Source: a virus
Virus record (IMG/VR): IMGVR_UViG_3300012582_000004
Coordinates: 186,001-250,000 of that record
Strand: one strand, 5' to 3'
Length of the DNA stretch: 64,000 bases
Below the pieces are notes generated by a model. The model was given only the letters and a program-made list of their open reading frames with translations, was not told the DNA's origin and searched no databases. Shown here one piece after another: positions 3,852 through 63,666 of this stretch; position 1 is the stretch's first letter, and every line of letters starts with the position of its first letter. A program made the position numbers and the translations under genes.

Positions 3852-4100
3852 ATGGATGTTAAAAAAGGGGATACTATAATATGTAAAAAAGAATTTACAT
3901 TAGCTGGTCATAATTTTATACTTAATCAAAAATATATTATTAAAGGTGATGGTATTATTGGTGGAAAGCGAGTACTTACTATTTCGATAAAAGGTGGAGA
4001 ACGATATTTAGGAAGTTTACGTAATATTTATGAATCAACTTTAAATAATAATTTTGAAAATAAATGGGATAAAAGAAAAAGAATTATTGATGAACTATAA
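3852..4100 (+). CDS. Small SH3-like protein with C-terminal tag, 82 aa
   Basis: The N-terminal part (KKGDTIICKKEF) looks like the first strands of a KOW/SH3-type barrel. The end, KRKRIIDEL, is the earliest case in this window of the shared C-terminal motif. GTG immediately precedes the ATG used here. No function is recognised. Confidence 0.55.
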   Translation: MDVKKGDTIICKKEFTLAGHNFILNQKYIIKGDGIIGGKRVLTISIKGGERYLGSLRNIYESTLNNNFENKWDKRKRIIDEL

Positions 4101-4149
4101 CAAAGAACAATTTTAATCGTTATATATACTGTATGAAACAAATAACAAA

Positions 4150-4202
4150 ATATTAGCCTTTTTCAATTTTTAACTGAATACCCAATTCAGTAATGCTAAT
4201 AT
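4150..4202 (+). promoter_or_regulatory. Nested hairpin upstream of the release factor gene
   Basis: An outer 8-bp pairing (ATATTAGC with GCTAATAT) encloses an inner hairpin (CTGAAT, loop ACCCA, ATTCAG). It ends 30 nt before the ATG and has no U-tract, so it does not look like a terminator. It may be a structured leader. Confidence 0.4.
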
Positions 4203-4231
4203 ATTGTATAATCAAAAAATAATTTACAAAA

Positions 4232-4906
4232 ATGGAAAAGATAATTTTAGAAATTCGTCAAGCCGAAGGTGGTGATGATGCGAAACTACTTACAGAAGAT
4301 ATGGCTAATATTTATATCAAAGCATCCAATATTCAAAACTTCAAAGTTAAACCTATTGAGTGAAGAGATGGCTTCATAACACTTTCTGTTGAAGGTGAAG
4401 GCGTGAAGCAATATTTTTCAAATGAAAGCGGTATTCATTGTTGGAATAGAGTTCCTCCTACAGAAAAAAGAGGAAGAATGCAAACTAGTTATGTATCAGT
4501 ATCCATTTTATCTCAATATAAAAAAACGTTTAATATGAATTGTGATGATGTGAGAGTTCTTTATACAAAAGGCTCTGGTCCTGGGGGACAAGCAAAGAAT
4601 AAATTAGAAACTTGTGTGGTATTAATGCACATTCCTACTAATATATCTGTTAGAATTGATGGTAGAAGTAGAGTTCATAATGAAAAAGAAGCTTGGAGAA
4701 TATTAGAAGATAGATTAAAAAAAGTTCATAACAATATAGAAGATAGTATTGAAAACACTAATAGGTTTGATCAAATTGGATATGGTAAAAGAGGTAATAA
4801 AAAAAGGAGTTATAAAGTAAAAGACAACTTAGTTATTGATCATGATACTAATAAGAAAATTCAATTAAAAGATATTCTTAAAGGTAGAATCGAACTTCTT
4901 AAATAA
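4232..4906 (+). CDS. RF1-like peptide chain release factor with an in-frame UGA at codon 44
   Basis: Read through the UGA (4361-4363), the protein has 224 codons. It begins LEIRQAEGGDDA, equivalent to the EIRAGTGGDE strand of RF1 domain 2. It continues with VPPTEKRGRMQTS, whose P-P-T fits the RF1 PxT codon-recognition motif. Then comes the catalytic GGQ loop (GSGPGGQAKNK). The N-terminal domain 1 is absent. Neither the +1 nor the -1 frame stays open after the UGA, so frameshifting alone does not rescue it. Either UGA is read through, or a downstream GTG (4403) starts a truncated protein, or the gene is decaying. UGA is a normal stop elsewhere in this window. Confidence 0.7.
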
Positions 4907-4970
4907 GATATTGCTTAATTTCTTTCAAAACAATGAAAATTAAAGATTTATCAAAAATGTTTAAAAATAT

Positions 4971-5001
4971 TTGCTTAATTAGAAAATACCTATTATATTT
5001 G
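4971..5001 (+). promoter_or_regulatory. Class A promoter
   Basis: TTG, 20 bp, TATATTTG, 27 bp upstream of the TelA gene. Confidence 0.65.
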
Positions 5002-5028
5002 TAAAAAAGAAATAAACCGACATCATAT

Positions 5029-6153
5029 ATGAACTCAGAAAAATCATTAAAAACAGTAGAAATTAATAAAGTAAAGCCAGAAGTTTTAGCGAAAGCTCAA
5101 AGTCTTGTCAAAACTATTGATATTTCTAAACAGGATAGTATTACTAACCTTGGATTAGAAACTCAGCAAAAGTTGAGTTCTATGAATAATGCAATTCTTG
5201 ATGAAGTTCGAACAAAAGATTCGGGTGAAGTAGGTAAAACTATTAATGAATTACTTACTCAAATCAATGCCATTGATGTTGATTTAAAACCAAGCCCACT
5301 TGCAAGCATTCCAATTATTGGAAGTTTTCTTGCTAAAATGTTTGATAAAGGAAAAGAAATTGTTTCTAAATATGAATCAGTTAAAACTAATATCAATGGT
5401 ATAGTTTTAAAGCTTGATAAAAGTCGCTTAGGATTAAGAAAAGACAATAATAATTTTCAAACTATGTTTGAAAAGAATGTTATAAACATTTCTGATTTGG
5501 ATGCTGCTATTGTTGCAGGTAAAATGAAAGTTGAAGAATTGAGTGGTGTCGTAGCATCATTCAGTCCTGAAGATGGTATTGAGGATTATGAGAAAAAAGA
5601 TACCGTTAACTTTTTGGATAGACTTGAAAAGAAAGTATATGACTTGCAATTAACAAGACATATTACTATTCAATCATTGCCTCAAATTAGATTGATTCAA
5701 TCAAACAATCAATTGCTCGAAGATAAAATTTTAAGTTCAATTAACAATACCATTCCAATTTGGCAACAACAAATGGTTATTGGACTTGGTATTCAAAGAC
5801 AAAAAAATGTGTTAGAAGTTGCTAAAAATATGGATGATGCAACAAATATAATGATTGTTAAAAATTCCGAGAATCTTAAATTTAACACAATTGAAGCTGC
5901 TAAAGCTAACGAGCGTGGAATTATTGACGTGGCTTCTTTGAAGAAAGTGAATGAAGATATAATGTCCACTCTTGATGAACTAGTTAAAATTAAAGAAGAT
6001 GGAAAGAAAGCAAGACAACAAGCTGAGGTAGAACTTTCAATGATTGAAAGTGAATTGAAAAATAAAATCCTTACAATCAAACAAGGTACATCAGCAACAG
6101 ATGTTGAACCAAATGTTAAAATTATCAATATAGACGAGCCAGAAAATGTCTAA
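5029..6153 (+). CDS. telA: TelA/KlaA-family toxic anion resistance protein
   Basis: The middle and C-terminal thirds carry family hallmarks: NNTIPIWQQQMVIGLG, QRQKNVLEVAK, ERGIIDVASLKKVNEDIMST, and a terminal charged coiled coil. Length (374 aa) is typical. TelA proteins are linked to tellurite and envelope stress resistance and in some hosts to phage or colicin tolerance; the mechanism is unsettled. The start overlaps nothing, and its 3' end overlaps the next gene by 8 nt, so the two are co-translated. Confidence 0.8.
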   Translation: MNSEKSLKTVEINKVKPEVLAKAQSLVKTIDISKQDSITNLGLETQQKLSSMNNAILDEVRTKDSGEVGKTINELLTQINAIDVDLKPSPLASIPIIGSFLAKMFDKGKEIVSKYESVKTNINGIVLKLDKSRLGLRKDNNNFQTMFEKNVINISDLDAAIVAGKMKVEELSGVVASFSPEDGIEDYEKKDTVNFLDRLEKKVYDLQLTRHITIQSLPQIRLIQSNNQLLEDKILSSINNTIPIWQQQMVIGLGIQRQKNVLEVAKNMDDATNIMIVKNSENLKFNTIEAAKANERGIIDVASLKKVNEDIMSTLDELVKIKEDGKKARQQAEVELSMIESELKNKILTIKQGTSATDVEPNVKIINIDEPENV

Positions 6154-7107: not shown

Positions 7108-7485
7108 ATGAGAAGTAAAGTAGTAAAGCGAATATTATCAGAAGCTTCTATAAGTAACTCTAAAATTTTAGAAAAAGCCATTGTCGAACATAAAAAGAAA
7201 TGGGATAGTGTGAATAGCATATTATCATTTTTTGGTGCAATATTATGGTTTTTTACAATTATTGCATTATTTAAGATAAGTCCAATAATCGGCATAATTT
7301 TATTATTTTGGTCATTTTTGGGTATATTTTCTTTAAATTTTAATAATAGTAATACAATTATTATATTACCACTTATTATATGGATGTTGATATTCGCATT
7401 AATATCATATTTGTTAATGAAAATAAATTATCCAACATTAGCAAAAATAAGAAAACAAAAAATTAAAAAAGCTTCTAAAATTTAG
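7108..7485 (+). CDS. Small membrane protein of the telA operon, 125 aa
   Basis: Two nucleotides after the previous stop. About three hydrophobic segments lie at residues 33-53, 55-72 and 82-108, with a basic cytoplasmic-looking tail. The C-terminus is encoded within the terminator stem. It may be the membrane anchor for the two upstream proteins. Confidence 0.6.
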   Translation: MRSKVVKRILSEASISNSKILEKAIVEHKKKWDSVNSILSFFGAILWFFTIIALFKISPIIGIILLFWSFLGIFSLNFNNSNTIIILPLIIWMLIFALISYLLMKINYPTLAKIRKQKIKKASKI

Positions 7486-20434: not shown

Positions 20435-20597
20435 AAGTTTTAGCTTTAGTTGTGAACATAGCTTTGTATCAGATATTCAACTCAGAATTGTTGAATGTAC
20501 AAAATGTAATAAAAAATATTGGTACTCTTATGGTGATATTTATTCAAAACCTAATAAAATTCAAGAGAGAAAAAATAAAATAAAACTACTTAGTTAA
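20406..20597 (+). CDS. Small zinc-binding protein with tag-like end, 63 aa
   Basis: CEH near residue 16 and CTKC at about 36 suggest a zinc site. It ends ERKNKIKLLS, close to the shared C-terminal motif. It overlaps the previous gene by 29 nt in another frame, so the true start may lie further in. Confidence 0.45.
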   Translation: MINKIKTLFKSFSFSCEHSFVSDIQLRIVECTKCNKKYWYSYGDIYSKPNKIQERKNKIKLLS

Positions 20598-20951
20598 GTC
20601 TTCTATTTTTATTTCTCTTAAAAGAGGTTTCAAGTCTTCATCAATATGTAGAAAAATATTTTCAAGAAGTATATGTATCTGTGATGGGACTTGTGCATGA
20701 TCTCTTCTATCATAAATAAAGAAAATCATTATATCTTGATTTATACTATCAGTTAGATATGAATATTTAGTCTGTACTTTATATGGAATTTTTTCATATA
20801 TGAAGTATTCGGAGAAAGTTTCTACATTGTTTATATACTTAAAAGTAATTGCCTTTCTTTTTACAATATCATAAAATAATGATGGAACTCTTAATGGAGT
20901 TGTTAAGTTTTTTGTATTTTTAAGTTTAGGTTTATTAACATTTTTAATCAT
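20586..20951 (-). CDS. Hypothetical protein, 121 aa
   Basis: Basic N-terminus, then a mixed alpha/beta region with IMIFFIYDRRDHAQVP. Convergent overlap of 12 nt with the zinc protein. A TATATA lies one base before the ATG context. No family recognised. Confidence 0.5.
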   Translation of the reverse strand: MIKNVNKPKLKNTKNLTTPLRVPSLFYDIVKRKAITFKYINNVETFSEYFIYEKIPYKVQTKYSYLTDSINQDIMIFFIYDRRDHAQVPSQIHILLENIFLHIDEDLKPLLREIKIEDLTK

Positions 20952-28008: not shown

Positions 28009-28308
28009 ATGGATTTATCTTTCGAAATGTTATATGATGGTATGGAGTTCTCTGCTCGAATAAATGAAATACCTTGTGTTGGTAAAATAGCATTGTTCGA
28101 TGGTGGTGTATATTTGTGTCAAAATGTAAAATCGGGGGCATATTGTGTTCGTAATAAAAGACATGGATATGATTTTAGTTGGGCAATATTAACAAAGAAT
28201 TGTTATAAGAAAACAATAGAACGTGCATTAAAACAAAATCATGTATCTGAGTTTAAAATTTTAAATAGAAGAAAGAATAGAATAACTGAATTTTATAATA
28301 AAAAATAG
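28009..28308 (+). CDS. Tandem family D, copy 1 (99 aa)
   Basis: First of four adjacent paralogs with the shared pattern DGMEFSA.I..IPCVGKIA.F...VYLCQ..K.G..C...RHGYDFSW, then NRRKNRITEFYNKK at the end. That end resembles the window-wide C-terminal motif extended by a few residues. A small SH3-like barrel is likely. Function unknown. Confidence 0.65.
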   Translation: MDLSFEMLYDGMEFSARINEIPCVGKIALFDGGVYLCQNVKSGAYCVRNKRHGYDFSWAILTKNCYKKTIERALKQNHVSEFKILNRRKNRITEFYNKK

Positions 28309-28309: not shown

Positions 28310-28609
28310 ATGAATTTAACATTTGAGTCATTGCAAGATGGTATGGAATTTTCCGCACATATAGATGGGACACCATGTGAAGGTAAACTTTGTATGTATG
28401 ATAACCATGTCTTTTTATGTCAAGACAAGAAAGATGGTATTGATTGTAGACGTGACAGAAGACATGGTTATCAATTTAGTTGGATAATTAAAGATCCATA
28501 TAAAAAAACTACAACACTTGATCAAGCATTGAAGATACATGGTGTAACTGGATTTAAAATTCTGAATAAAAGAAAAGATAGAATAACTGACTTTTATAAT
28601 CAAAACTAA
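28310..28609 (+). CDS. Tandem family D, copy 2 (99 aa)
   Basis: Same architecture as copy 1 with IPC replaced by TPC and LCQDKKDG, and the end KRKDRITDFYNQN. One nt separates it from copy 1. Confidence 0.65.
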   Translation: MNLTFESLQDGMEFSAHIDGTPCEGKLCMYDNHVFLCQDKKDGIDCRRDRRHGYQFSWIIKDPYKKTTTLDQALKIHGVTGFKILNKRKDRITDFYNQN

Positions 28610-28614: not shown

Positions 28615-28914
28615 ATGGAATTATCTTTTGAATCATTAACAGATGGTATGGAATTTTCTGCTAACATAGATGGAATACCATGTGTTGGTAAAATTGCTGT
28701 ATTTAGTGGTTTTGTATATTTATGTCAAAATAAAAAATCTGGCGCACTTTGTGGATACGATAAAAGACATGGTTATAATAGTAGTTGGATAATTAGAAAT
28801 CCTGCTAAACATGTTCCATCACTATCGGTATCGTTCGCTGAAAACAGAGTAACTGAATTTAAAATTCTGAATAAAAGAAAAGATAGAATAACTGAATTTT
28901 ATAATCAACATTAA
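28615..28914 (+). CDS. Tandem family D, copy 3 (99 aa)
   Basis: Most like copy 2 in its last 20 residues (ILNKRKDRITEFYNQH), suggesting recent duplication or gene conversion. Confidence 0.65.
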   Translation: MELSFESLTDGMEFSANIDGIPCVGKIAVFSGFVYLCQNKKSGALCGYDKRHGYNSSWIIRNPAKHVPSLSVSFAENRVTEFKILNKRKDRITEFYNQH

Positions 28915-28915: not shown

Positions 28916-29221
28916 ATGGATTTATCTTTCGAATTGTTATATGATGGTATAGAATATTCTGCTAACATTGTTGGAATACCTTGTGTAGGTAAAGTTTCTA
29001 TGTTTGATAACAGTGTTTATTTATGTCAAGATAAAACAGAAGGTTCTGACTGTGGTGTTGATAGAAGACATGGTTATGATTACAGTTGGGTGATTGTAGA
29101 AAGTTTGGACGATACTCCATTAGAAGAAGCATTGGATTTAAATGATGTTAAAGATTTTAAAATAATAAATAGAGTAGCTGATAAAAGAAAAGAAAGAATA
29201 AATAAATTAAATTTTGACTAA
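28916..29221 (+). CDS. Tandem family D, copy 4 (101 aa)
   Basis: Most divergent end (DKRKERINKLNFD) while the core DGIEYSANIVGIPCVGKV is retained. A fifth relative lies at 53108. Confidence 0.65.
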   Translation: MDLSFELLYDGIEYSANIVGIPCVGKVSMFDNSVYLCQDKTEGSDCGVDRRHGYDYSWVIVESLDDTPLEEALDLNDVKDFKIINRVADKRKERINKLNFD

Positions 29222-37744: not shown

Positions 37745-38110
37745 ATGAAAATGAACATAAATGAATTAGATTTATCACAATTTGAATATATAGGATCGGA
37801 AATTGAGCATAACATTTCAAATGTTGGATTTAAAGATTATTTTATATATGATAATTTATTAGTATTAGTAGTTCCAAGTGTTATTATTAAATTTTATGAC
37901 AAAAAACTAAGTATGACACATAGTGAAAATCTTTATATGTTGAATAAAATTTTACATTTAATTACAAAGCACATTAATTTTACAGAAAATTATTCAAATA
38001 TGATGAATAATATAAAACAAACCATAGGACGTAATTATATTACATATGATGCTATTAAATTAGCATATCGTATATCATTGAGAAGAAGAAAAATTGATGA
38101 ATTATTATGA
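37745..38110 (+). CDS. C-terminally tagged hypothetical protein, 121 aa
   Basis: Ends RRRKIDELL, a clear example of the shared tag. The body is Ile/Leu-rich and mixed. Its TGA overlaps the next ATG. Confidence 0.55.
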   Translation: MKMNINELDLSQFEYIGSEIEHNISNVGFKDYFIYDNLLVLVVPSVIIKFYDKKLSMTHSENLYMLNKILHLITKHINFTENYSNMMNNIKQTIGRNYITYDAIKLAYRISLRRRKIDELL

Positions 38111-41328: not shown

Positions 41329-41634
41329 ATGAGAAAAATCTCAAAAGAAATAGTCTATAGTAGAGATGGTAGCACCTATACAGAATGTTGGATAGGTTTA
41401 AATGTTGGTGATAAACTACTATGTATAGATAATACCATTGCTTCAAAATATGTATGTCTTACTGTAGGAAGAGTGTATACAGTATTTAGATTAGCTCTCA
41501 TTGATAATAAAAATGTAGCACATATAATAGATAATGGTTGTCTTTCTTGCTTAGTTACAACAGATAGGTTTTCTATCATAAAGGATAAATTTGAAAAAAG
41601 AATTGATAAAATTGCAGGTTTAATTGAAGAATAA
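41329..41634 (+). CDS. SH3-like protein with weak tag, 101 aa
   Basis: LNVGDKLLCIDNT and VGRVYTVFRL give a KOW/SH3-like pattern resembling the 3852 protein. Ends FEKRIDKIAGLIEE, a loose version of the shared tag. First gene of the long rightward small-gene run. Confidence 0.55.
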   Translation: MRKISKEIVYSRDGSTYTECWIGLNVGDKLLCIDNTIASKYVCLTVGRVYTVFRLALIDNKNVAHIIDNGCLSCLVTTDRFSIIKDKFEKRIDKIAGLIEE

Positions 41635-41676: not shown

Positions 41677-41886
41677 ATGAAATTGTCAAACAATGAATTA
41701 AAAGAATTAGGGATAAAATCAATAGGTGTTATCTCAGAAAAGAGTCTTGCTCCTTTATTTTATATTAAATTCTTAGATGATGAGAAAGACATGGTTAGGT
41801 TTAATTCGGTGGAAGATTTTAATGAATATATTAGGGAGTTATATGCTTTAATAAGAAAAATTAAAATAGATGATATATTAGAATGA
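41677..41886 (+). CDS. Tagged family E, copy 1 (69 aa)
   Basis: First of four adjacent paralogs with the pattern K-E-L-G-I-K-S-I-G..FYIKFLD..K....S.EDFNEYI and the tag RKIKIDDILE. Stop and next start overlap (ATGA). Confidence 0.6.
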   Translation: MKLSNNELKELGIKSIGVISEKSLAPLFYIKFLDDEKDMVRFNSVEDFNEYIRELYALIRKIKIDDILE

Positions 41887-42092
41887 TAGAATCAATTGGT
41901 ATTTTCAAAGACAAGTATTTTAAAGAATTGCAAATAAAATCAATAGGAACAGTATTTAAAAATTCTAATCCTGTATATTACATTGAATTTTTAGATAAAG
42001 TAAAAAATGTAATTTATTGTAATTCTATAGAAGAATTTAATAGTAATATTATAAGCATGTGTAGAAAAATTAAGATAAATCAATTATTATAA
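41883..42092 (+). CDS. Tagged family E, copy 2 (69 aa)
   Basis: Paralog: LQIKSIGTVFKNSNPVYYIEFLD, tag CRKIKINQLL at the end. Overlaps both neighbours. Confidence 0.6.
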   Translation: MIESIGIFKDKYFKELQIKSIGTVFKNSNPVYYIEFLDKVKNVIYCNSIEEFNSNIISMCRKIKINQLL

Positions 42093-42313
42093 TGAATAAG
42101 TATAAATATAAGTATGAGTATATCACAAAGGAGAATATTAAAAAATTAGGAATATTATATTATACCACGACTGATCAATATTTAAAACGAAATTTCTACA
42201 TTGTATTTGAAGGTGAGAAGAAGAAATTAAAATCTATTGAACATGTGAATGAATTCATAAAAACTATGTTAATAGTAGAGCTAAGAAAAAATAAAATAGA
42301 TGAACTATTATGA
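42092..42313 (+). CDS. Tagged family E, copy 3 (73 aa)
   Basis: Paralog with a basic-aromatic start and tag LRKNKIDELL. TGA overlaps the next ATG. Confidence 0.6.
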   Translation: MNKYKYKYEYITKENIKKLGILYYTTTDQYLKRNFYIVFEGEKKKLKSIEHVNEFIKTMLIVELRKNKIDELL

Positions 42314-42534
42314 AACAATGGTACATTTTAACTAAAGAAGAACTTTTATTATTAGGAATAAACGGTATAGAAACGAGTCACATAATTTATAGTAATAAAC
42401 CATCTATATTTTTATATTATATTAAATTTGTAAATGGTACAGAAAATATTCTATATTCATTAAAAGAAATTGATGATTATATTACAAATTTGCAAATAGA
42501 CATAAGAAAAAATAAAATACAAGAATTATTATGA
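42310..42534 (+). CDS. Tagged family E, copy 4 (74 aa)
   Basis: Paralog (LLLLGINGIETSH...YYIKFVNG), tag IRKNKIQELL. Confidence 0.6.
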   Translation: MKQWYILTKEELLLLGINGIETSHIIYSNKPSIFLYYIKFVNGTENILYSLKEIDDYITNLQIDIRKNKIQELL

Positions 42535-42827
42535 AACCATCATTTAAAAACAGATTGTTTATTATCAATAAAAGAGTTTCTCGTATAAAAATTATATCTA
42601 TTTTTCTAATAATAGAACTAATTAACTTGTCGAGTAATTATAATAATTTAGAACGTTTTTTAATATGTACAAGTGCTGTATTAGCATTGGTTATTTTTAT
42701 AACACTGAAATTATTATTTCCTGAAGGAGGATTTGTTTATAGTGAAAAAGAAGAAGCAGTAATTGAAGAACAACAAATGGAAGAGAAAATAAAATTAAGA
42801 AAAAAGAAAATACAAAATTTAATATAG
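42531..42827 (+). CDS. Tagged membrane protein, 98 aa
   Basis: Two hydrophobic helices (about 19-36 and 44-65), a charged tail, and the tag LRKKKIQNLI. The tag would face the cytoplasm by the positive-inside rule. Confidence 0.6.
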   Translation: MKPSFKNRLFIINKRVSRIKIISIFLIIELINLSSNYNNLERFLICTSAVLALVIFITLKLLFPEGGFVYSEKEEAVIEEQQMEEKIKLRKKKIQNLI

Positions 42828-42828: not shown

Positions 42829-43221
42829 ATGATAAAATTACTATCATATAGCACTATTGTTTTTAATGTTGCTATGACAATAATATCAATAACAAACATA
42901 TTTGTAGAAAATAATGTATTATCTTATATTATTACCATTGCATTACCAATTCAAATTGTATTAGCAGTATATTTTTTAATTATTACTATTAAAAATTATG
43001 TAAAAACTAAAAGGCAACACAAATTAATAAATTTTATAAATGAATATAAAATTAAAAAAGGTGATACTGTATACATAAATCCAAATGTGTTGAAAGAAAC
43101 AAACATTACTATATCATCTAATATTAATGGTGTAGAAATAGTATATGATAAATCAATACCAAGCTTTAAAGTAGAAACTTTATCAGAAAGAAGAAAGAAA
43201 CGTATTAATAATTTAGTATAA
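42829..43221 (+). CDS. Tagged membrane protein, 130 aa
   Basis: Two hydrophobic helices in the first 55 residues, then a soluble SH3-like part (KKGDTVYINPN) and the tag RRKKRINNLV. Confidence 0.6.
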   Translation: MIKLLSYSTIVFNVAMTIISITNIFVENNVLSYIITIALPIQIVLAVYFLIITIKNYVKTKRQHKLINFINEYKIKKGDTVYINPNVLKETNITISSNINGVEIVYDKSIPSFKVETLSERRKKRINNLV

Positions 43222-43413: not shown

Positions 43414-44034
43414 ATGCTAAGAGATTTCTTAAAAGAACCCGTCGTAAACAATAATGGTAAAATTCAACTTGATAAAGTAGAGAAGTTTATACAATTTAAC
43501 TTTGATACCAATGAGAAAATTGGGGGTGTATTCATAATTAATAATTTATTCATTGCATATTCTAAAAAAAATGGGTACAAATCAATTATAAATATTGTTA
43601 ACTCTATTCAGAGGTTTAGTAATAGTAATTTCCACTTAATTAATAGATTATATACTGAAATAGAAAGTGGAAATAAAATAACAGTAGATAGATTATCTAC
43701 TGACTATAGTGAGAAGTCTAAATTTATAGAAGATAGAAAAGATTTATGTAATGTTACTAAAATAGGTAGTTATAAAAAACATTTGATACATAGAAAGCAA
43801 TACTTCTACAAGTGTGTATTACAAAGACTTAAATATGTAAAAGTTAGTAGTGTTAATGAACCAATGCCACCAAAAGCGTATTTTATATCTGATAGCGAGG
43901 TATCAAATTATAAAAATATTGGGTTGGGTGGGTTTCTATATCAATCACCAACAAACAAACAAATATTTGTTGATGAAGAATTGAATATGGTATTTAAACG
44001 CGAAAGAAGACTTTCTATAATAAATGAATTATAA
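43414..44034 (+). CDS. C-terminally tagged protein, 206 aa
   Basis: Largest protein of this run; mixed alpha/beta, basic centre. Ends KRERRLSIINEL, a tag variant. No family recognised. Confidence 0.55.
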   Translation: MLRDFLKEPVVNNNGKIQLDKVEKFIQFNFDTNEKIGGVFIINNLFIAYSKKNGYKSIINIVNSIQRFSNSNFHLINRLYTEIESGNKITVDRLSTDYSEKSKFIEDRKDLCNVTKIGSYKKHLIHRKQYFYKCVLQRLKYVKVSSVNEPMPPKAYFISDSEVSNYKNIGLGGFLYQSPTNKQIFVDEELNMVFKRERRLSIINEL

Positions 44035-44354
44035 TGGATACAAATAGAGAAAATGTGATTAGACTCATTGAGTGCTTAGGGTTTATTAAAAGTCGATATT
44101 CTATGATAACCTCACCCGTTTCAAAAAAGAGTTTTTTATCTACATTTGCAGGTGATTCATGGGTTTTGAAATATGATGATGTTGAATATGAAATAAAAAT
44201 ATTTAATACTGGTATAAATTTAACTAATTATGAGACTGGTAAATTAGTTTTTTCTATTGTGAACTTAATTGATGATGATTATAATGTATTTTATAAAGAA
44301 TTAAGAAAGCATTTTAAAGTGTTGTTCAGAAAAAAAATTATTGAAGAAATTTAA
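44034..44354 (+). CDS. C-terminally tagged protein, 106 aa
   Basis: Acidic/beta-rich centre (WVLKYDDVEYEIKIFNTGINL), end LFRKKIIEEI. Overlaps its upstream neighbour by one base. Confidence 0.55.
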   Translation: MDTNRENVIRLIECLGFIKSRYSMITSPVSKKSFLSTFAGDSWVLKYDDVEYEIKIFNTGINLTNYETGKLVFSIVNLIDDDYNVFYKELRKHFKVLFRKKIIEEI

Positions 44355-44355: not shown

Positions 44356-44589
44356 ATGGGAAATTTAATATTTAAAAGAGTTGGTGAAATGGTAGGTGTT
44401 TGTAAAAATGCCGAAATAATAGAAGTACTACAATATAATGTTGATGGTAATGGTGGATTTTTGTATATTGGTGATGGTGAGCATATAGGTATAGAATCAA
44501 AGGAAAATTTAAAAATTATGATAAATTATAAAAGACATTTCACTTGGGATAGTCGTAGTTATAAAATTGATAACTTATTAAAAGACTAA
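44356..44589 (+). CDS. C-terminally tagged protein, 77 aa
   Basis: The ATG at 44356, one nt after the previous stop, is preferred over an upstream TTG. Gly-rich centre; end SRSYKIDNLLKD is a tag variant. Confidence 0.55.
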   Translation: MGNLIFKRVGEMVGVCKNAEIIEVLQYNVDGNGGFLYIGDGEHIGIESKENLKIMINYKRHFTWDSRSYKIDNLLKD

Positions 44590-44810
44590 TGTGTGTGGCT
44601 TTACAAGGTGGCTGTTGTTATTGTAGTTTAGCTTTTACTAAAGGCATAGACTTTAGTAAAAAGTATAGAATATGGGAAGAGAAATCATTCTTTGGATTAT
44701 TTACATCCACTTATAATGAAATGAACATGTGTTATCAATGTATAGATAAATTTAAAGAAAAGTATTCCACTATAAATATTAGAAAGAGAAGAATTAAAAA
44801 GTTGTTGTAA
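44589..44810 (+). CDS. Tagged small zinc-finger-like protein, 73 aa
   Basis: CCYCSL (residues 9-14) and MCYQCIDKF (about 47-55) form a likely four-cysteine zinc site. Ends IRKRRIKKLL. Last gene of the run, convergent with the next. Confidence 0.6.
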   Translation: MCVALQGGCCYCSLAFTKGIDFSKKYRIWEEKSFFGLFTSTYNEMNMCYQCIDKFKEKYSTINIRKRRIKKLL

Positions 44811-48090: not shown

Positions 48091-48378
48091 ATGGATTCTA
48101 ATTTACATAATATTTTAAATAGAATTGGATTCGAAAAAGTTTATACATATTCAGAAAATTTTGTAAATACTGTTTATAAATACAAACTCTATTGTCTTAG
48201 TGTATATGTTTATAGCAACAGTGAAATTTATTATAACTTTTATATTGATGAACATCTTTATTTTATTGATGATAATAATACTATATTATTTGGAGATAAT
48301 AGAAATAGTCTATTAAAAATATTATTAAGCGAATTTAAAGTAGAATTAAGAAAAAGTAGAATAGAAGAACTACTTTAA
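48091..48378 (+). CDS. C-terminally tagged protein, 95 aa
   Basis: ATG at 48091 chosen over an upstream TTG. Tyr-rich beta domain, then LRKSRIEELL at the end. Confidence 0.55.
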   Translation: MDSNLHNILNRIGFEKVYTYSENFVNTVYKYKLYCLSVYVYSNSEIYYNFYIDEHLYFIDDNNTILFGDNRNSLLKILLSEFKVELRKSRIEELL

Positions 48379-51409: not shown

Positions 51410-51687
51410 TCTATTATACCTTTAATTTTATGTTGTCTAATTATATCCTTAAACTCTTCATTTAAGAATTCATATACTTTTGAAGAAGTTTTATTCCATA
51501 GTAAACATCTATCATCTTTAAATATCTGAAATCTGGTATTTACTTTTATTTCTGAATCCTCTCTAAACAATGGTGAACTTATTATTAAAATAAGATAATC
51601 TTTATATCTATACGATATAGCATCCGTATTTTCGGTTCTATAATAAACGAAACCAATAATATTCATAAGCTTCTTAACATTACTCAT
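51406..51687 (-). CDS. C-terminally tagged protein, 93 aa
   Basis: SYRYKDYLILIISSPL recalls the 33670 protein. End IIRQHKIKGIIE is a tag variant. Overlaps both neighbours by 4 nt. Confidence 0.55.
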   Translation of the reverse strand: MSNVKKLMNIIGFVYYRTENTDAISYRYKDYLILIISSPLFREDSEIKVNTRFQIFKDDRCLLWNKTSSKVYEFLNEEFKDIIRQHKIKGIIE

Positions 51688-51950
51688 ATAAAAGATTCTA
51701 ATTTTTTACTTCTAATAAAAACTTTTAGTTCATCAAGTGTTAAATATTCTAATTTACTAATATCTTTTATTTCATATTTAGTAGTATCTTTAACATAATA
51801 CTCTTTAAGATGGAATAATTTTTTATGAGCTTCGTGAACTTTAGCTATTACAAATTCACGAAAAATATATTCAACAGTATATCTTTCTATAGCTGCATGT
51901 TGTTTAGTTTTTACTTTACTTACTACTAATCCTAAAGATTCTAATCTCAT
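51684..51950 (-). CDS. C-terminally tagged protein, 88 aa
   Basis: Starts MRLESLGLVVSKVK; ends FIRSKKLESFI. Paralog of the 48392 protein. First gene of a leftward trio. Confidence 0.55.
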   Translation of the reverse strand: MRLESLGLVVSKVKTKQHAAIERYTVEYIFREFVIAKVHEAHKKLFHLKEYYVKDTTKYEIKDISKLEYLTLDELKVFIRSKKLESFI

Positions 51951-53107: not shown

Positions 53108-53377
53108 ATGATTATAGATAATTGGAAAACTGGTGATAAATTTATTGCAAAAATACGTGATGTGGAAGTAGAAGGTAAAATTTATATTACTGGTGCTCAT
53201 ATATTTCTATGTCAAAATACTTTTCGTGGTATGCCTTCTCCCGATAAATTAGGATATGATGGATCGTGGATTATTCATATATCAGATGTTAAATATGATA
53301 AAGTACCATATTTAACTAACTTAAAAGTATTCAATACTTTGAATAGAAAAGAAAGAATACAAAATTTATCTTTATAA
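53108..53377 (+). CDS. Family D, distant fifth copy (89 aa)
   Basis: WKTGDKFIAKIRDVEVEGKIYI..IFLCQN..GYDGSWII parallels the 28 kb tandem family. End NRKERIQNLSL resembles the shared tag. Confidence 0.6.
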   Translation: MIIDNWKTGDKFIAKIRDVEVEGKIYITGAHIFLCQNTFRGMPSPDKLGYDGSWIIHISDVKYDKVPYLTNLKVFNTLNRKERIQNLSL

Positions 53378-54360: not shown

Positions 54361-54768
54361 ATGATAGAATATAAATTTATTATAGTTGGCGGTACGACTG
54401 ATTGTTTTACAATAGATGTAGAAGATAGTGAAAAATATAATAATAGTATTATATGGAATAAAGCCATTGAACATGCGAAAAGAAAGAACCTTCGTATTGG
54501 TTCTAGGGGAATGGGAATATATTGTTATGGTTGGGAAAAAGATGGTGAATATGAAGATTCTGGATTTGAAAAAACAGTTGCCCATTCCTATCAACGAGGA
54601 GTAGCATTTAAAATGTTAAAGAATTTAAAAGATCCTATACCATATCTAAAAATGATAGCTGAAGCAGAAGGTGAGCCTAATAAATTTAATTACTTAATTT
54701 TTAATATAATTGGAATGCCTGAATATAAAAAAGTTAAAAGAATTTCCATAATAAATGATATAATATAA
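54361..54768 (+). CDS. C-terminally tagged protein, 135 aa
   Basis: Beta-rich start (YKFIIVGGTTDCFTIDVEDS) and GSRGMGIYCYGWEKDGEYED; end VKRISIINDII. No family recognised. Confidence 0.55.
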   Translation: MIEYKFIIVGGTTDCFTIDVEDSEKYNNSIIWNKAIEHAKRKNLRIGSRGMGIYCYGWEKDGEYEDSGFEKTVAHSYQRGVAFKMLKNLKDPIPYLKMIAEAEGEPNKFNYLIFNIIGMPEYKKVKRISIINDII

Positions 54769-54910: not shown

Positions 54911-55195
54911 ATGAAACCTAAACCATTTAATAAATCAGATAGCATAAGTAATGAAGAACTTACAAAATATGCTACTAATTTAGTAATGATGCAACTTAAA
55001 GATAGTATATCAGAAGATACTTACAATAAATTCTTTGATAAATTTACTATCGAAGTAAATCTATTTTCAGCTACTACAATAACTATTGTAAATAGAAATA
55101 CAAATGAAGTATCATTTTGTTTTAATAACATAGGATTATTAATAATAGAAATTAAAAAGCTATTAAGAATAGATATTATAGAAGATTTATTGTAA
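54911..55195 (+). CDS. Tagged family G, copy 1 (94 aa)
   Basis: DTYNKFFDKFTIEV is shared with the 56397 and 56795 proteins. End LRIDIIEDLL. Lacks their N-terminal membrane helix. Confidence 0.55.
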   Translation: MKPKPFNKSDSISNEELTKYATNLVMMQLKDSISEDTYNKFFDKFTIEVNLFSATTITIVNRNTNEVSFCFNNIGLLIIEIKKLLRIDIIEDLL

Positions 55196-55886: not shown

Positions 55887-56228
55887 ATGAATAAATTTAA
55901 ATATTGTATAGAATATCTACAGTCTATATCATATGATGATTTAGTTAATATATCATTTGATTTCTATGAAGATGATTCTAATTTTAATAACAAAGGCATT
56001 CATTTTGCGGTTGATGTAAAAGATATTAGTAGAATCTATACCGATGAAAATAACATATCTATTTATATGACTAATAAAGTATTCCCGTTTTTTGATATAA
56101 CATCTGTTAAAACAGGAAGATTTGTGTATAACACAAATACTAAAAAAGGTATAGAAGCTAAAATAGATAATCTATATGCATATATTAATAAGTATAGAAG
56201 AGATAAAATTATAAATGATTTGATATGA
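55887..56228 (+). CDS. C-terminally tagged protein, 113 aa
   Basis: ATG at 55887, one nt after the protease stop; an in-frame ATG at 55872 is possible. Ends YRRDKIINDLI. Confidence 0.5.
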   Translation: MNKFKYCIEYLQSISYDDLVNISFDFYEDDSNFNNKGIHFAVDVKDISRIYTDENNISIYMTNKVFPFFDITSVKTGRFVYNTNTKKGIEAKIDNLYAYINKYRRDKIINDLI

Positions 56229-56396: not shown

Positions 56397-56798
56397 ATGA
56401 TAGTATTTTTTGGTTGGTTCGGTTTAATTGCTGTTATGGTTGCTTTATTATATATTGTAATATCTAAGTGGTGTGAATTATTAGATATAAGTATGAACAA
56501 TAGAAGAACAAGTTTACCTAGTTATAGAATGTCACCTAAAGAAAAAAAAGAGTGGGAACAGAGAATGGAGCAAATTATTAATAATAATTTAATGAACGAA
56601 ATTAAAGATAAGTTGTCTTCAAAAGATTATAATAAGTTCTTTAGTAGGTTTACTATAAAAACAGATGATGTTTTTATTAATATCTATATTGAAGATAATA
56701 TTACAAAAGAAACATATAATACCATGGATGATTTAGATGTTATATTAAATAAGATTAAAATTAAACTAAGAAAAGAAACTATTGAAGAATTATTATGA
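56397..56798 (+). CDS. Tagged family G, copy 2 (133 aa, membrane-anchored)
   Basis: N-terminal helix (GWFGLIAVMVALLYIVI), SMNNRRTSLP, YNKFFSRFTIK, tag LRKETIEELL. Tandem with copy 3; TGA overlaps the next ATG. Confidence 0.6.
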   Translation: MIVFFGWFGLIAVMVALLYIVISKWCELLDISMNNRRTSLPSYRMSPKEKKEWEQRMEQIINNNLMNEIKDKLSSKDYNKFFSRFTIKTDDVFINIYIEDNITKETYNTMDDLDVILNKIKIKLRKETIEELL

Positions 56799-57187
56799 TA
56801 GAAGTTTTAGGTTGGCTAGCTTTAATAGCAGTTATGGTTTTTTTATTATATTTTACAATAACTAAGGGTTGTGAAATATTAGATATAGATATGAATAATG
56901 GAAGAACAAGTTTACCATTATCTTCTAAAGAAATGGCGGAATGGGAAAAGGGGTATATATCAAACCGTATTAATATAGCGACAGAACAAATTAAAAATAA
57001 GATGTCTGTAGAGAATTATAATAAGTTCTCTAATAGATTTACAATAAAAGCAAATATAGCATATACATTCATTGAAGATAATATTACAAAAGATGCTTAT
57101 TCCCCTACAACTTCTATAGGCTTAGATGAAACATTAAACATCATTAAAATTAAACTAAGGAAAGAAACTATTGAAGAATTATTATGA
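56795..57187 (+). CDS. Tagged family G, copy 3 (130 aa, membrane-anchored)
   Basis: Same layout as copy 2, including DMNNGRTSLP and the identical last ten residues. Confidence 0.6.
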   Translation: MIEVLGWLALIAVMVFLLYFTITKGCEILDIDMNNGRTSLPLSSKEMAEWEKGYISNRINIATEQIKNKMSVENYNKFSNRFTIKANIAYTFIEDNITKDAYSPTTSIGLDETLNIIKIKLRKETIEELL

Positions 57188-58854: not shown

Positions 58855-59055
58855 ATGAAAAAATTCAATGATTGGATAGAATATCTAAAGGAAAATGTGG
58901 AAAATAACGCATTTTTGATACAACCATTGGAATTATACAATTTAGGCATTTATAATGAATCTGACTTAGATGATGTAATTACTAAAGAAGATAGCAATAT
59001 TTTAACTTCATATACGTTTCTTAAAAAGAAGCAGATTGATAGCTTTTTAGACTAA
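58855..59055 (+). CDS. Weakly tagged small protein, 66 aa
   Basis: Start fixed by the promoter. Acidic helical; end LKKKQIDSFLD resembles the tag. Convergent with the ART-like gene. Confidence 0.55.
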   Translation: MKKFNDWIEYLKENVENNAFLIQPLELYNLGIYNESDLDDVITKEDSNILTSYTFLKKKQIDSFLD

Positions 59056-59725: not shown

Positions 59726-60280
59726 CTATACAAAACCATACTTACACTTAACTAATATCGTACCATCATAATCCATCACAGCTTTAATAAAACTAAAAGG
59801 CATAAAAATCCTACCATTAGCATTTTCTACAATATCATTGAAAATATTATTACATAATCTATCGTAAAATTTACCATTCTCTTCTAAAGTATTTTTATTT
59901 ATAGTTTCTCTATATGTATTATTCACCTGAATAGATTCTAAAAAATCTTCATAGTCCAAATCATTATCTAAGTTCTCTATCGTAAACTTTCTAACAATTC
60001 CTCTATCGTAGTTATGTCTAATTTGAATACCATGCTTAATTAGCTTACTCAATACTAACCATGTTAAATGTGTACCATCAAAAGTTTTGTATGTTAAAGA
60101 AGAATCTTTGTATATAGTCGTTGAATTATCTAAAGAACTTATATACATAGATGCTTGCTCCATACATATAGAGAAATTGGTAATATCTTCTATACTTGTA
60201 GTATTTGCTAAAGGTGTCCATTTATTAATTATATTACCAATAATATTTTTATCAGCTAATATATGTCTCATTGCGCTCAT
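59726..60280 (-). CDS. Family F protein, copy 2 (184 aa)
   Basis: Paralog of the 46976 protein (SKLIKHGIQIRHNYDRG, ANGR, end KCKYGFV). ATGA overlap with the stop of the upstream family H gene. Last gene of the leftward array. Confidence 0.6.
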   Translation of the reverse strand: MSAMRHILADKNIIGNIINKWTPLANTTSIEDITNFSICMEQASMYISSLDNSTTIYKDSSLTYKTFDGTHLTWLVLSKLIKHGIQIRHNYDRGIVRKFTIENLDNDLDYEDFLESIQVNNTYRETINKNTLEENGKFYDRLCNNIFNDIVENANGRIFMPFSFIKAVMDYDGTILVKCKYGFV

Positions 60281-60702
60281 AATAGTCTTTCAATTTTCTC
60301 TGCCCTAATATCAGTAGCTATATCAATAAGTATATTATAAAATTTGGGTACATTTAATGTAGAGTATATTTCATTGCATTTGTCATAATATAATGAATAT
60401 AAATTGTATTCATTTTTATCACTCTCAGATATTAATCTATATGTACCACATATATTATATTTTCTATTATAATCAATAGGAATATTATATCTAACAATTG
60501 TTATAACTAATTGATGCCTAACTTCATTATTCCATATATATAATTGTGGGTATAAAATAATATCAACTTTATCATTAATTTTAATTGTAATCCCATCATT
60601 ATACATTATTGTATAATCACCATTATCTAATTTATTATCAATAACTGTGCTATAAGTATCAAAAAAACTTTTTAATATTACAGTTTTATCTTTAATTTCC
60701 AT
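60277..60702 (-). CDS. Tagged family H, copy 1 (141 aa)
   Basis: Family H pattern: K..V...FF..Y...I..KL.NGDY.., then INDKVDIILYP, an I-x-R-Y segment, a short Y-N-I-C variant of GYARKYxI, LYSLYYDK, TLNVP and the tag DIRAEKIERLL. Most divergent full-length copy. Confidence 0.6.
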   Translation of the reverse strand: MEIKDKTVILKSFFDTYSTVIDNKLDNGDYTIMYNDGITIKINDKVDIILYPQLYIWNNEVRHQLVITIVRYNIPIDYNRKYNICGTYRLISESDKNEYNLYSLYYDKCNEIYSTLNVPKFYNILIDIATDIRAEKIERLL

Positions 60703-61127
60703 TATAATAATTCGTTTATTTTCTCTATCCTAATATCAGTAGTAATATTATTGAATAAAGTAGCTGCGAGAAATGTATTCTTTTCGGGGATATTAATAGT
60801 AGTGTATATATCATTAGATTTATTATAGTATAATGAATATAAATTCCACATGTTATTATTTTCTGAACATGATAAAACATAACTGCTATAAATTTCATAT
60901 TTTCTAGCATATCCTGTAACATCAGTATATCTATTAATAGATATTCCTATTGTCCCAGTATCTCCAATATATGAATATGGAATTAATCTAACATCATACC
61001 TATCATTTATTCTAATATAAATTCCAACTAAATTTAATTTATAATCACCATTATTTAACTTAGCATTTATGATACTATTATAAGCATTAAAGAAGTTCCT
61101 TATAACTTTTTTATCTTTTTCGTTCAT
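60702..61127 (-). CDS. Tagged family H, copy 2 (141 aa)
   Basis: Family H core (NAYNSIINAKLNNGDYKL, RYTDVTGYARKYEI, LYSLYYNKSNDIY), end DIRIEKINELL. One-base overlap with both neighbours. Confidence 0.65.
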   Translation of the reverse strand: MNEKDKKVIRNFFNAYNSIINAKLNNGDYKLNLVGIYIRINDRYDVRLIPYSYIGDTGTIGISINRYTDVTGYARKYEIYSSYVLSCSENNNMWNLYSLYYNKSNDIYTTINIPEKNTFLAATLFNNITTDIRIEKINELL

Positions 61128-61537
61128 TATATTAAATTCTCAATTTTACTTTTTCTTAAATCTGTATTAACATCATCAAAATTAATAGATATTGAAACAT
61201 GTCCATTAAATGTAGAATATATTTTATTTAATATCCCATAATATAAAGTAAATAATTTAAACTTACTATTGATTTCATTGCTATAAAATCCATAAGTATC
61301 GTAAATATCATATTTCCTAGCATGACCTGTAATATCTGTATATCTAATAATAGAAACACTTAATGTCTTAGTAGAAGATGAATTAAATGGATATAATAAA
61401 ACATCATATCTATCATTTATTATAATAGTAACATATCTATTTTTTAATTTATAATCACCATTATTCAATTTGTCCTGTATAATATTATTATACTCACTAA
61501 AAAATGATGCTATAATTTTTTCCTCTTTTTCACTCAT
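61127..61537 (-). CDS. Tagged family H, copy 3 (136 aa)
   Basis: Family H core with RYTDITGHARKYDI; end DLRKSKIENLI. Confidence 0.65.
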   Translation of the reverse strand: MSEKEEKIIASFFSEYNNIIQDKLNNGDYKLKNRYVTIIINDRYDVLLYPFNSSSTKTLSVSIIRYTDITGHARKYDIYDTYGFYSNEINSKFKLFTLYYGILNKIYSTFNGHVSISINFDDVNTDLRKSKIENLI

Positions 61538-61779
61538 TACATTAAATTCTCAATTTTAGTTACTCTATACTCAGCAGGTGTTTGAAAGTTATTTAGTATC
61601 TGCATATCAGTTTTAAATACACTATAAAAATACATATCATTTAAAGTTAATATCATTTCATCATTAGATAATAAACATGTATATCTTTCTCCCTTATTAA
61701 ATAATTTATAATAAGGATAGTTAATAGTGTTAACACATATTAAGTAATCAATACCTCTATATTTAGAAAAAACTCCCAT
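61537..61779 (-). CDS. Tagged small protein inside family H array, 80 aa
   Basis: Not clearly family H: starts MGVFSKYRGIDYLICVNT and lacks the NGDY and GYARKY segments, but ends EYRVTKIENLM, so it carries the tag. Confidence 0.55.
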   Translation of the reverse strand: MGVFSKYRGIDYLICVNTINYPYYKLFNKGERYTCLLSNDEMILTLNDMYFYSVFKTDMQILNNFQTPAEYRVTKIENLM

Positions 61780-62216
61780 TACTCTAATAAGTTATCTATT
61801 TTTTGTAATCTAATATCATTCTTAATGTCATCGAATAACATAAACTTAAATTGGTCATTAAAAATATTATTAGATGGTATATTAAGTGTGGAATATATCT
61901 CGTTAGATTTACTATAATATAATTTATATTCATCATCACCATCATTGATCGAAAATGAATAACTATTGTGAATATCATGTAATCTAGCATATCCTGTAAT
62001 ATCAGTATACCTAACAATAGTTGTTTCTAACATAGATGCCATACCCTTATTTGCTTTATATGAGAATGGAAAGAACATAACATCAAATCGCTCATTAATT
62101 TTAATAATGATATGTCTCAATTTTAACTCATAATCACCACTATCTAATTTAGTATCTATTATAACATTATAAGTATCGAAGAAGTCTGCTATAGTCTTTC
62201 TATCCTTTTTTATCAT
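61779..62216 (-). CDS. Tagged family H, copy 4 (145 aa)
   Basis: Family H core (DTYNVIIDTKLDSGDYEL, RYTDITGYARLHDI), end DIRLQKIDNLLE with one extra residue. Confidence 0.65.
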   Translation of the reverse strand: MIKKDRKTIADFFDTYNVIIDTKLDSGDYELKLRHIIIKINERFDVMFFPFSYKANKGMASMLETTIVRYTDITGYARLHDIHNSYSFSINDGDDEYKLYYSKSNEIYSTLNIPSNNIFNDQFKFMLFDDIKNDIRLQKIDNLLE

Positions 62217-62230: not shown

Positions 62231-62659
62231 TTATAATAGTCTATCTATTTTCTCTACCCTAATATCACTATAAATTTCTTTGAATAAACTAAACCCATCA
62301 CTTTTAGGTATATTAAGTGTAGAATATATCTCATTAGATTTATTATAGTATAAGGAATATAAATTATATTCATCATCATTTTCTCTACAATTAAATCCAT
62401 AACTTCTAATAATATTATGTTTCCTAGCATACCCAGTAATATCAGCATATCTAATAATAGTTATTTCTATCAATGGTGTATCACCATTACCATACCAAAT
62501 TGTTGTATGTGGATACATCTTAATATCAAATCTATCACTTACTCTAATAGTAATATCCATCTGCTTTAATTCATAATCACCATTATCCAATTTAGCATTT
62601 ATTATACTATTATAAGTATTGAAGAAGCTTGCTACAATCTTTTTATCTCCCGTTAACAT
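62231..62659 (-). CDS. Tagged family H, copy 5 (142 aa)
   Basis: Family H core (NTYNSIINAKLDNGDYEL, RYADITGYARKHNI), end DIRVEKIDRLL. First gene of the leftward array, behind a class B promoter. Confidence 0.65.
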   Translation of the reverse strand: MLTGDKKIVASFFNTYNSIINAKLDNGDYELKQMDITIRVSDRFDIKMYPHTTIWYGNGDTPLIEITIIRYADITGYARKHNIIRSYGFNCRENDDEYNLYSLYYNKSNEIYSTLNIPKSDGFSLFKEIYSDIRVEKIDRLL

Positions 62660-62677
62660 ATTAATAATTCATATTAT

Positions 62678-62706
62678 CATTATAGCGGAATTATATGGGA
62701 AAGTTT
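62678..62706 (-). promoter_or_regulatory. Class B promoter
   Basis: AAACTTTCC, 13 bp, TATAATG, 18 bp before the family H array. Confidence 0.6.
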
Positions 62707-62711
62707 TATTT

Positions 62712-62739
62712 AAACTATTAAGAATATTTATGTATAATA
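62712..62739 (+). promoter_or_regulatory. Class B promoter
   Basis: AAACTATTA, 12 bp, TATAATA, back to back with the leftward promoter at 62678. Confidence 0.5.
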
Positions 62740-62755
62740 AGTAAACTATAAATAC

Positions 62756-62935
62756 ATGGATATAAAGAATATTGTATGTAGTAATTGCAATTCTACAAAT
62801 ATAACAATTACAAAAAAAAGAAAAAGAACAAGTGGTAAATTAGTTCATGGTAGAAAAATGAGCTATGGATATTGTTACAATGAACATGTTTGTAATAACT
62901 GTCAGAATACATGGAAAAAAGAAACAAGCTTATAA
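62756..62935 (+). CDS. Small zinc-ribbon protein, 59 aa
   Basis: VCSNCNS and VCNNCQNTW give a CxxC...CxxC ribbon around a very basic loop (KKRKRTSGK). Probably nucleic-acid-binding. One-base overlap with the next gene. Confidence 0.6.
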   Translation: MDIKNIVCSNCNSTNITITKKRKRTSGKLVHGRKMSYGYCYNEHVCNNCQNTWKKETSL

Positions 62936-63240
62936 TGACAAAATTCGAACAATATCAAAAGTACTCAAAATCTATAGTAGATGAATTTATAGACAAATGC
63001 TCTATGAAACATGATTACCTGGATTATTGTAATGCTCTTAGAATAGATAGTAATACATATTATACTTTCTATACAGCTAATACTAAAAGCCTTTTGGAAT
63101 TATCATTTGATACAAATCCACACACTTTATCCAAAGCAAATGTATATACTTCTAAAAGACGTAAGGAAGCTACTAAATGGCTAATAACAAATCATCTTAG
63201 TTATGAACAATGGTTATTGAAAAATAAAATATCACTATAA
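62935..63240 (+). CDS. Hypothetical protein, 101 aa
   Basis: ATG overlaps the zinc-ribbon stop. Helical, with SKRRKEATKWLITNHLSYEQW near the end. No tag. Confidence 0.55.
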   Translation: MTKFEQYQKYSKSIVDEFIDKCSMKHDYLDYCNALRIDSNTYYTFYTANTKSLLELSFDTNPHTLSKANVYTSKRRKEATKWLITNHLSYEQWLLKNKISL

Positions 63241-63666
63241 TAGATTTTCTATTTTATCTATTCTAATATCATTGTTAATATCCTTAAATATCTCTTCCGA
63301 TCTAAATGGAATAATGTAAGGGATATTAAGTGTAGAATATATCTCATTAAATTTTTCATAATATGAATATAAATTAAATTTATCATTATTTTCATTACAA
63401 GTAAATGCATGAATATTATGAATATTATATTTTCTAGCATATCCCGTAACATCCTTATATCTAACAATAGTTACTTCCAACAATGGTATATCGCCATTAC
63501 CATTCCAATTAGCTATATACGGATAAAATTTAACATCGAATCTATCATTTATTTTAATGGTAATATACCTCTGCTTTAATTCATAATCACCATTATCTAA
63601 CTTATTATCTATTATACCCTTATAGGTATCGAAGAAGTTTGCTATAACATCACCATTCGTTTTCAT
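63235..63666 (-). CDS. Tagged family H, copy 6 (143 aa)
   Basis: Family H core (DTYKGIIDNKLDNGDYEL, RYKDVTGYARKYNI), end DIRIDKIENLL. Separated from the rest of the array by two rightward genes and served by its own class B promoter. Confidence 0.65.
   Translation of the reverse strand: MKTNGDVIANFFDTYKGIIDNKLDNGDYELKQRYITIKINDRFDVKFYPYIANWNGNGDIPLLEVTIVRYKDVTGYARKYNIHNIHAFTCNENNDKFNLYSYYEKFNEIYSTLNIPYIIPFRSEEIFKDINNDIRIDKIENLL

Follow-up and report, generated by a model that had tools for sequence, protein, structure and literature searches.

A shared C-terminal peptide tag on unrelated Mahaphage proteins and its candidate role as a docking helix

Why do dozens of small and otherwise different proteins encoded in one stretch of viral DNA end in a similar short peptide? 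The question is raised by 64,000 nucleotides of the IMG/VR virus record IMGVR_UViG_3300012582_000004 (positions 186,001 to 250,000; hereafter the window), in which an original prediction, made from the sequence alone, had noted a common C-terminal tag on about 35-39 gene products. The eight C-termini that it quoted are all present at the genes named, and we find about 36-38 tagged open reading frames (ORFs) in the window. The window lies at 564400-628399 of LR756504.1, the 636,363-bp genome of an uncultured Mahaphage; this clade includes complete genomes of 634, 636, 642 and 735 kb (Al-Shayeb et al., PMC7162821). The capsid protein, head protease, sheath and terminase of LR756504 match T4-type PHROGs; a search for the terminase family PF17289 gave no match, and the terminase was recovered through PHROGs. 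The closest phages by capsid protein are LR745206, LR756502 and LR756501, the last being the 735-kb phage; for 181 LR756504 proteins, homologues exist in LR756502 as well as in LR745206. Gene sets were made with a simple in-house caller (890 genes for LR756504, 941 for LR756502, 928 for LR745206 and 984 for LR756501), and tag counts may therefore shift somewhat.

A common peptide with lineage dialects

The tag of LR756504 has the form R-K-x-[KRI]-I-[DEN]-x-[LI]-[LI], lies near the stop codon and is found mostly on small proteins. Run genome-wide, an iterated profile built on the final 12 residues detects it on 128 of the 890 proteins, about one in seven, compared to 0.71 expected at a threshold that 1 in 5000 internal windows passes (false-positive rate 2e-4). 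Thus, the phenomenon is larger than the window had suggested, and the motif is specific to C-termini rather than equally frequent inside proteins. Similar results are obtained with a simple regular expression, which finds 75 tagged C-termini in LR756504 against a mean of 0.82 for shuffled tails (maximum 6 in 1000 shuffles), and 99 and 102 in LR756502 and LR745206 (shuffled means of 0.8-1.15 across the three genomes). Indeed, in an unbiased search for gapped motifs in C-terminal 14-mers, the tag motif ranks first in each of the four Mahaphage genomes. The 128 carriers fall into 95 BLASTP clusters once their last 16 residues are removed, and the tag is therefore not the end of one ancestral domain family. 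Most carriers have no known domain, and the recognised few include a riboflavin kinase and DUF6011 proteins; fold searches with two carrier families gave no match below an E value of 0.001, and a PADLOC scan of the carriers gave marginal matches only. The carriers cluster at 580-636 kb and 0-80 kb, which adjoin on the circular genome.

The tag lies mostly 0-8 residues ahead of the stop; in LR756504 it is followed by 0 to 7 residues in 58, 31, 21, 13, 4, 3, 1 and 1 cases, respectively. A second dialect, R-[DNE]-x-K-[LI]-x-x-[LI]-[LG], is carried by 141 of the 941 LR756502 proteins and 138 of the 928 LR745206 proteins (about 0.7 expected in each), and often ends in L-G-I, usually one residue from the protein end. 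A third, R-T-x-L-I-D-x-M-L, marks about 16 small proteins of LR756501, most of them unrelated. Constant across dialects are an Arg at position 0, Ile or Leu at +4, Ile, Leu or Met at +7 and, usually, Lys or Arg at +3. Arg0 hardly varies, and Lys does not substitute for it. Position +1 is Lys in LR756504, Asp, Asn or Glu in the sister phages and Thr in the 735-kb phage. The earlier description of the tag as a basic amphipathic helix accordingly suits the LR756504 dialect, which shows helical periodicity with basic and hydrophobic faces, but is too narrow for the other phages, in which the residue at +1 is not basic.

LR756502 and LR745206 share one dialect although they were reported from a French lake and a Japanese subsurface sample, and thus dialect follows phage kinship rather than site. 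A DNA pattern for the LR756504 dialect, run against IMG/VR, matched only this phage. A pattern for the L-G-I ending matched 64 stretches, spread over several dozen contigs of IMG/VR that reach 476 kb and may be fragments; some of these stretches have the tag on about half of their ORFs. Run on 257 Gb of cellular genomes, the same pattern gave 13 isolated matches, and the loci concerned hold no tagged ORF; JAIYAW010000009.1, a contig of 633,507 bp deposited as a Bacteroidetes metagenome-assembled genome, holds one stray match to the tag pattern. Weak matches aside (two in PAU, and one marginal each in Lak-B5 and LR756500), no tag was found in sampled stretches of 60-80 kb from each of the phages PTm1, PAU, MA9V-1, pT24, Lak-B5 and LR756500. 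The 462-kb phage LR756500.1 encodes a run of proteins with a common ADDFGFFDN-like C-terminus, which could reflect an array of paralogues or a further terminal tag.

Selection, portability and gene class

Selection acts on the tag peptide, as had been claimed from the differing codons of the window genes. Codons for Arg0 follow genome usage (in LR756504, 99 AGA compared to 98.4 expected), and the 27-mers encoding the tag are all distinct, with a mean nucleotide identity of 57-60%. Among homologues of LR756502 and LR745206, paired by BLAST after their tails had been cut, tag status was concordant in 468 of 474 cases (55 pairs both tagged, 413 with neither tagged and 6 discordant). The both-tagged pairs have a median body identity of 41% and an unequal distance from tag to stop in 38 of 55; thus, the peptide has been retained while body and linker drifted.

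Comparison with homologues outside the Mahaphages indicates that the tag is portable. The DUF6011 proteins of LR756502 and LR745206 have a terminal extension of about 15-20 residues that consists of little but the tag, whereas their homologues in Caulobacter phage CcrColossus, Sinorhizobium phages phiM9 and Phosso and Rhizobium phage RL2RES are untagged and stop just past the last Cys of the domain. Similarly, the domain of the LR756502 riboflavin kinase ends at residue 128 of 214, and the tag stands at the far end. In the best-modelled family, that of ORF 62231, AlphaFold gives a domain at residues 1-115 (predicted local distance difference test, pLDDT, mostly 80-93), then a linker that is weak in the model and gapped in the alignment, and then a separate tag helix at residues 133-141 with pLDDT <50. 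A conserved motif, a variable linker and unrelated carriers are together the properties of a short linear docking motif. Among single-pass tagged proteins, 10 of 11 are predicted to have the C-terminus inside, in the cytoplasm, and none the N-terminus.

The tagged genes also belong to a distinct class. A TAATATATA-like element, mostly intergenic, lies upstream of the capsid, protease and sheath genes of LR756504, LR756502 and LR745206, and probably serves these phages as late promoter; it resembles the T4 late promoter TATAAATA. The element stands about 15-45 bases 5' of structural genes and of genes for proteins with an N-terminal tag, MK[YH][IL]Kx[FY][EN], in these three genomes. That tag occurs on 37-92 proteins per genome, depending on the regular expression, compared to about 1 expected; its counterpart in LR756501 is of the type MIKKFKLFE. 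The late-type promoter precedes 16 of 23, 25 of 30 and 25 of 30 operon heads with the N-terminal tag (LR756504, LR756502 and LR745206, respectively), but only 4 of 37, 0 of 44 and 1 of 40 heads with the C-terminal tag. C-tagged genes thus form a non-late class. In the same order, the regular expressions place both tags on 2, 1 and 0 proteins compared to 5.8, 13.8 and 11.9 expected (Fisher P values of 0.06, 3e-6 and 1e-6); these overlaps look spurious, and no convincing protein bears both tags.

Tagged genes of the window

The profile finds 32 tagged ORFs of our gene set in the window, to which we add ORF 44589, the shortened tags of 3852, 43414 and 44034 and the weak tag of 51684; ORF 58441 is a doubtful carrier. 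Each tag is given below with its ORF, the position of the tag and, where it passed, its profile score. The plus-strand carriers begin with a shortened tag, RKRIIDEL, which lacks the last residue (ORF 3852-4100, 4074..4097, read at the C-terminus and below profile), and a weak one, RKQKIKKAS (7108-7485, 7450..7476, 12.3). A run of adjoining genes, the first of them in paralogue family A4, carries RKNRITEFY (28009-28308, 28270..28296, 16.7), RKDRITDFY (28310-28609, 28571..28597, 16.7), RKDRITEFY (28615-28914, 28876..28902, 16.5) and RKERINKLN (28916-29221, 29186..29212, 22.0), the last behind a linker that exceeds those of its paralogues. RKSTIEEFC (33670-34041, 34009..34035, 17.2), RGSKIKCLL (35436-35807, 35778..35804, 17.3) and RRRKIDELL (37745-38110, 38081..38107, 19.1) follow.

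A further plus-strand group consists of RIDKIAGLI (41329-41634, 41599..41625, 15.1), RKIKIDDIL (41677-41886, 41854..41880, 19.7), RKIKINQLL (41883-42092, 42063..42089, 19.4), RKNKIDELL (42092-42313, 42284..42310, 24.2), RKNKIQELL (42310-42534, 42505..42531, 21.6), RKKKIQNLI (42531-42827, 42798..42824, 19.7) and RKKRINNLV (42829-43221, 43192..43218, 21.9). Next to these are the shortened tags RLSIINEL (43414-44034, 44008..44031, a C-terminus reading that the regular expression frames differently) and RKKIIEEI (44034-44354, 44328..44351, seen at the C-terminus), both below profile, then RSYKIDNLL (44341-44589, 44554..44580, 19.0) and RKRRIKKLL (44589-44810, 44781..44807), which was read at the C-terminus of an ORF outside our gene set. 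RKSRIEELL (48091-48378, 48349..48375, 26.7) comes next. The remaining plus-strand tags are RKERIQNLS (53108-53377, 53345..53371, 20.5), RISIINDII (54361-54768, 54739..54765, 14.4), RIDIIEDLL (54911-55195, 55166..55192, 19.8), RDKIINDLI (55857-56228, 56199..56225, 16.1) and two copies of RKETIEELL, each on a protein with an N-terminal membrane segment (56397-56798, 56769..56795, 20.3, also seen by alignment; and 56795-57187, 57158..57184, 20.3).

On the minus strand are the weak tag REIKIEDLT (20586-20951, 20592..20618, 13.5), RQHKIKGII (51406-51687, 51412..51438, 13.5) and the weak, below-profile RSKKLESFI (51684-51950, 51687..51713). The minus-strand series near the end of the window carries RAEKIERLL (60277-60702, 60280..60306, 18.7; family A3), RIEKINELL (60702-61127, 60705..60731, 20.6), RKSKIENLI (61127-61537, 61130..61156, 23.2), RVTKIENLM (61537-61779, 61540..61566, 18.7), RLQKIDNLL (61779-62216, 61785..61811, 17.7), RVEKIDRLL (62231-62659, 62234..62260, 19.4), which is the gene of the AlphaFold model above, and RIDKIENLL (63235-63666, 63238..63264, 20.5). 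ORFs with the N-terminal tag lie at 12993-13355, 38546-39169, 39176-39853, 57598-57930, 57957-58160 and 59021-59704 on the minus strand and at 50552-50938 on the plus strand. The window also holds eight clustered tRNA genes, mostly for Leu and Ser, at 24426-25893 around an ORF of 234 amino acids.

A candidate docking helix and its rivals

We lean, by a little, towards reading the tag as a portable C-terminal docking helix, an address carried by non-late cytoplasmic proteins and recognised by one common reader. The helix would be joined to folded, mostly small accessory proteins made before the late phase, and the reader would bind Arg0 and the hydrophobic face (Ile or Leu at +4 and +7, Leu or Gly at +8), bringing numerous unrelated proteins together at a single site or complex. 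Most likely, the reader would be phage-encoded and would have diverged with the phage to give the lineage-specific dialects, since dialect tracks phage kinship. Peptide selection, portability and exclusivity thus agree with the original proposal of a docking, localisation or turnover signal; the single reader, its phage origin and the recruitment are presumed parts of the proposal. Two mutually exclusive labels on two gene classes are fitted best by sorting. A fuller two-address code is a tentative extension, less likely than not: an N-terminal label would send late proteins into the capsid, and a C-terminal dialect label would direct about 15% of the proteome, synthesised ahead of the late phase, to a phage-encoded hub or compartment.

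Several points weigh against a docking helix. The phages are uncultured, and the reading is drawn from sequences and models. Detachment of the tag helix appears clear in the models of one family, that of ORF 62231, while in that of ORF 28009 the tag lies beside the domain, in a helix that follows a strand (pLDDT about 50). The early or middle timing is suggested by the absence of late-type promoters and not by transcripts. No residue is fixed at +1, so contact there is weak or lineage-specific. Examination of two reader candidates, ClpC/ClpP and PrkA, identified no reader, and there is some chance, though a modest one, that the reader belongs to the host. PrkA is found in LR756504, LR756502, LR745206 and contig G006, but was not found in the tag-bearing contigs G001, G003 and G005 (possibly partial) nor in LR756501; its distribution does not track the tag, and its role as reader is unsupported. 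The PrkA kinase gene of LR756504 is clustered with DUF444 and SpoVR genes (LR756504.1:112167-120589), a set like the bacterial yeaG-yeaH-ycgB, and homologues are also found in LR756502 and LR745206 but not in LR756501.

The tag might instead be a degron that delivers early proteins to a phage ClpC-type unfoldase without N-domain and to ClpP, clearing them before the late phase; we regard this as unlikely. A terminal peptide on a linker has the typical look of a degron, and the phages carry suitable proteins: phrog_4871 belongs by its Pfam match to the ClpA/ClpC-type Hsp100 proteins, and not to Lon as the PHROG name 'ATP-dependent protease' might suggest. It was found in all searched contigs of at least 280 kb that bear the tag, and in nine compared tag-bearing genomes or contigs it lacks Clp_N but has the VGF loop that docks ClpP. 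In LR756504 this unfoldase is encoded at LR756504.1:534497-536443, and two strong clpP genes lie at 370879 and 291828. ClpP is found in LR756504, LR756502, LR745206 and three tag-bearing contigs; in each of the three genomes a tagged gene follows a clpP gene, and PTm1, PAU, MA9V-1 and pT24 have neither Clp protein nor, in the sampled stretches, a comparable tag. However, if the tag were a ClpCP degron, unfoldase and ClpP would be expected in every tag-bearing phage, and the 735-kb phage, with about 16 tagged proteins, gives no match to PF00574 (ClpP) and has an Hsp100 that keeps its N-domain and lacks the VGF loop, so that this is unlikely to be a universal function. Contigs G005 and G006 (perhaps partial) also lack ClpP, Lak-B5 encodes ClpP yet showed no tag in the 60 kb sampled, enzymes such as riboflavin kinase bear the tag, and the association of Clp with the tag is confounded by common ancestry.

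A host reader, such as a component of RNA polymerase, the ribosome or the nucleoid, to which the tag would recruit early phage proteins for host take-over, seems rather improbable as well. The carriers are small, non-late-type and mostly ORFans, as is typical of take-over genes, and Bacteroidetes hosts are predicted for Mahaphages (Al-Shayeb et al., PMC7162821). But the related T4-like Bacteroidota phages PTm1, pT24 and MA9V-1, and Lak-B5, are untagged in the sampled stretches, dialect tracks phage kinship, and cells do not use the tag, as the 13 isolated matches in the 257 Gb searched indicate. Membrane targeting by lipid binding, with no protein reader, is very improbable: the two faces and helical periodicity of the LR756504 tag would suit it, but lipid binding would require neither a near-invariant Arg0 that excludes Lys nor the acidic +1 residue of the sister phages. 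Finally, the idea that there is no peptide signal, the gene ends being either a DNA or RNA element serving translation of the following gene or the end of one shared fold, is refuted. Overlap with the next gene is more frequent among tagged genes (45 of 128) than among untagged ones (66 of 762), and the tag leans somewhat towards A-ending codons for Ile and Leu, but for 24 tagged genes the neighbour is on the opposite strand and for 35 the gap exceeds 15 bases, and this arrangement, together with the Arg codons and the distinct 27-mers, rules out a translational-coupling element. A shared fold is contradicted by the differing carrier domains, the 95 clusters and the untagged DUF6011 homologues.

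Known systems resemble the proposed docking helix in part. The ssrA tag and other ClpX/ClpA degrons are C-terminal and portable peptides that follow a linker, as here, and ClpC/ClpP is found in most tag-bearing phages examined. Unlike ssrA, the Mahaphage tag is genome-encoded gene by gene and may be followed by up to 8 residues; no transfer-messenger RNA was found in the four Mahaphage genomes, which rules out a tag from that source, and one tag-bearing phage has no ClpP. The targeting peptides of encapsulin cargo and of bacterial microcompartments are likewise short, terminal and found on unrelated proteins, which they load into one structure, but their sequence differs and no shell protein was identified in these phages. 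Import into the ChmA phage nucleus (Imp1/PicA) is also a phage-encoded intracellular sorting of phage proteins; the Mahaphage capsid, protease and terminase genes are T4-type. The T4 capsid targeting sequence (CTS) of IPI-IPIII and Alt is a short peptide common to highly diverse accessory proteins and portable to foreign ones (PMC3012670, PMC5694885), and in this the Mahaphage tag is alike. The CTS, however, is N-terminal, is removed by the prohead protease and marks head proteins, whereas the tag is C-terminal, sits on genes without late-type promoter, has no constant Glu such as would mark a prohead protease site, and is mutually exclusive with the CTS-like N-terminal tag that these phages also carry. 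Capsid packaging by the C-terminal tag is unlikely given that promoter absence and exclusivity; the likeness of the N-terminal tag to the CTS suggests that many of its carriers are packaged.

A shared peptide label is thus already known as a broad idea from the CTS. We found no description of a C-terminal label on non-late genes with lineage dialects, and nothing relevant on a shared C-terminal phage tag, in the open-access literature, most subscription papers being outside the search. The tag offers a way to annotate ORFs, to mark non-late genes and to trace lineages in metagenomes, and may serve as a small portable tag for protein recruitment. If the docking reading holds, sorting by terminal labels would apply to a large share of the ORFan proteins of the largest known phages, and finding the reader would locate the site of action of hundreds of ORFans at once.

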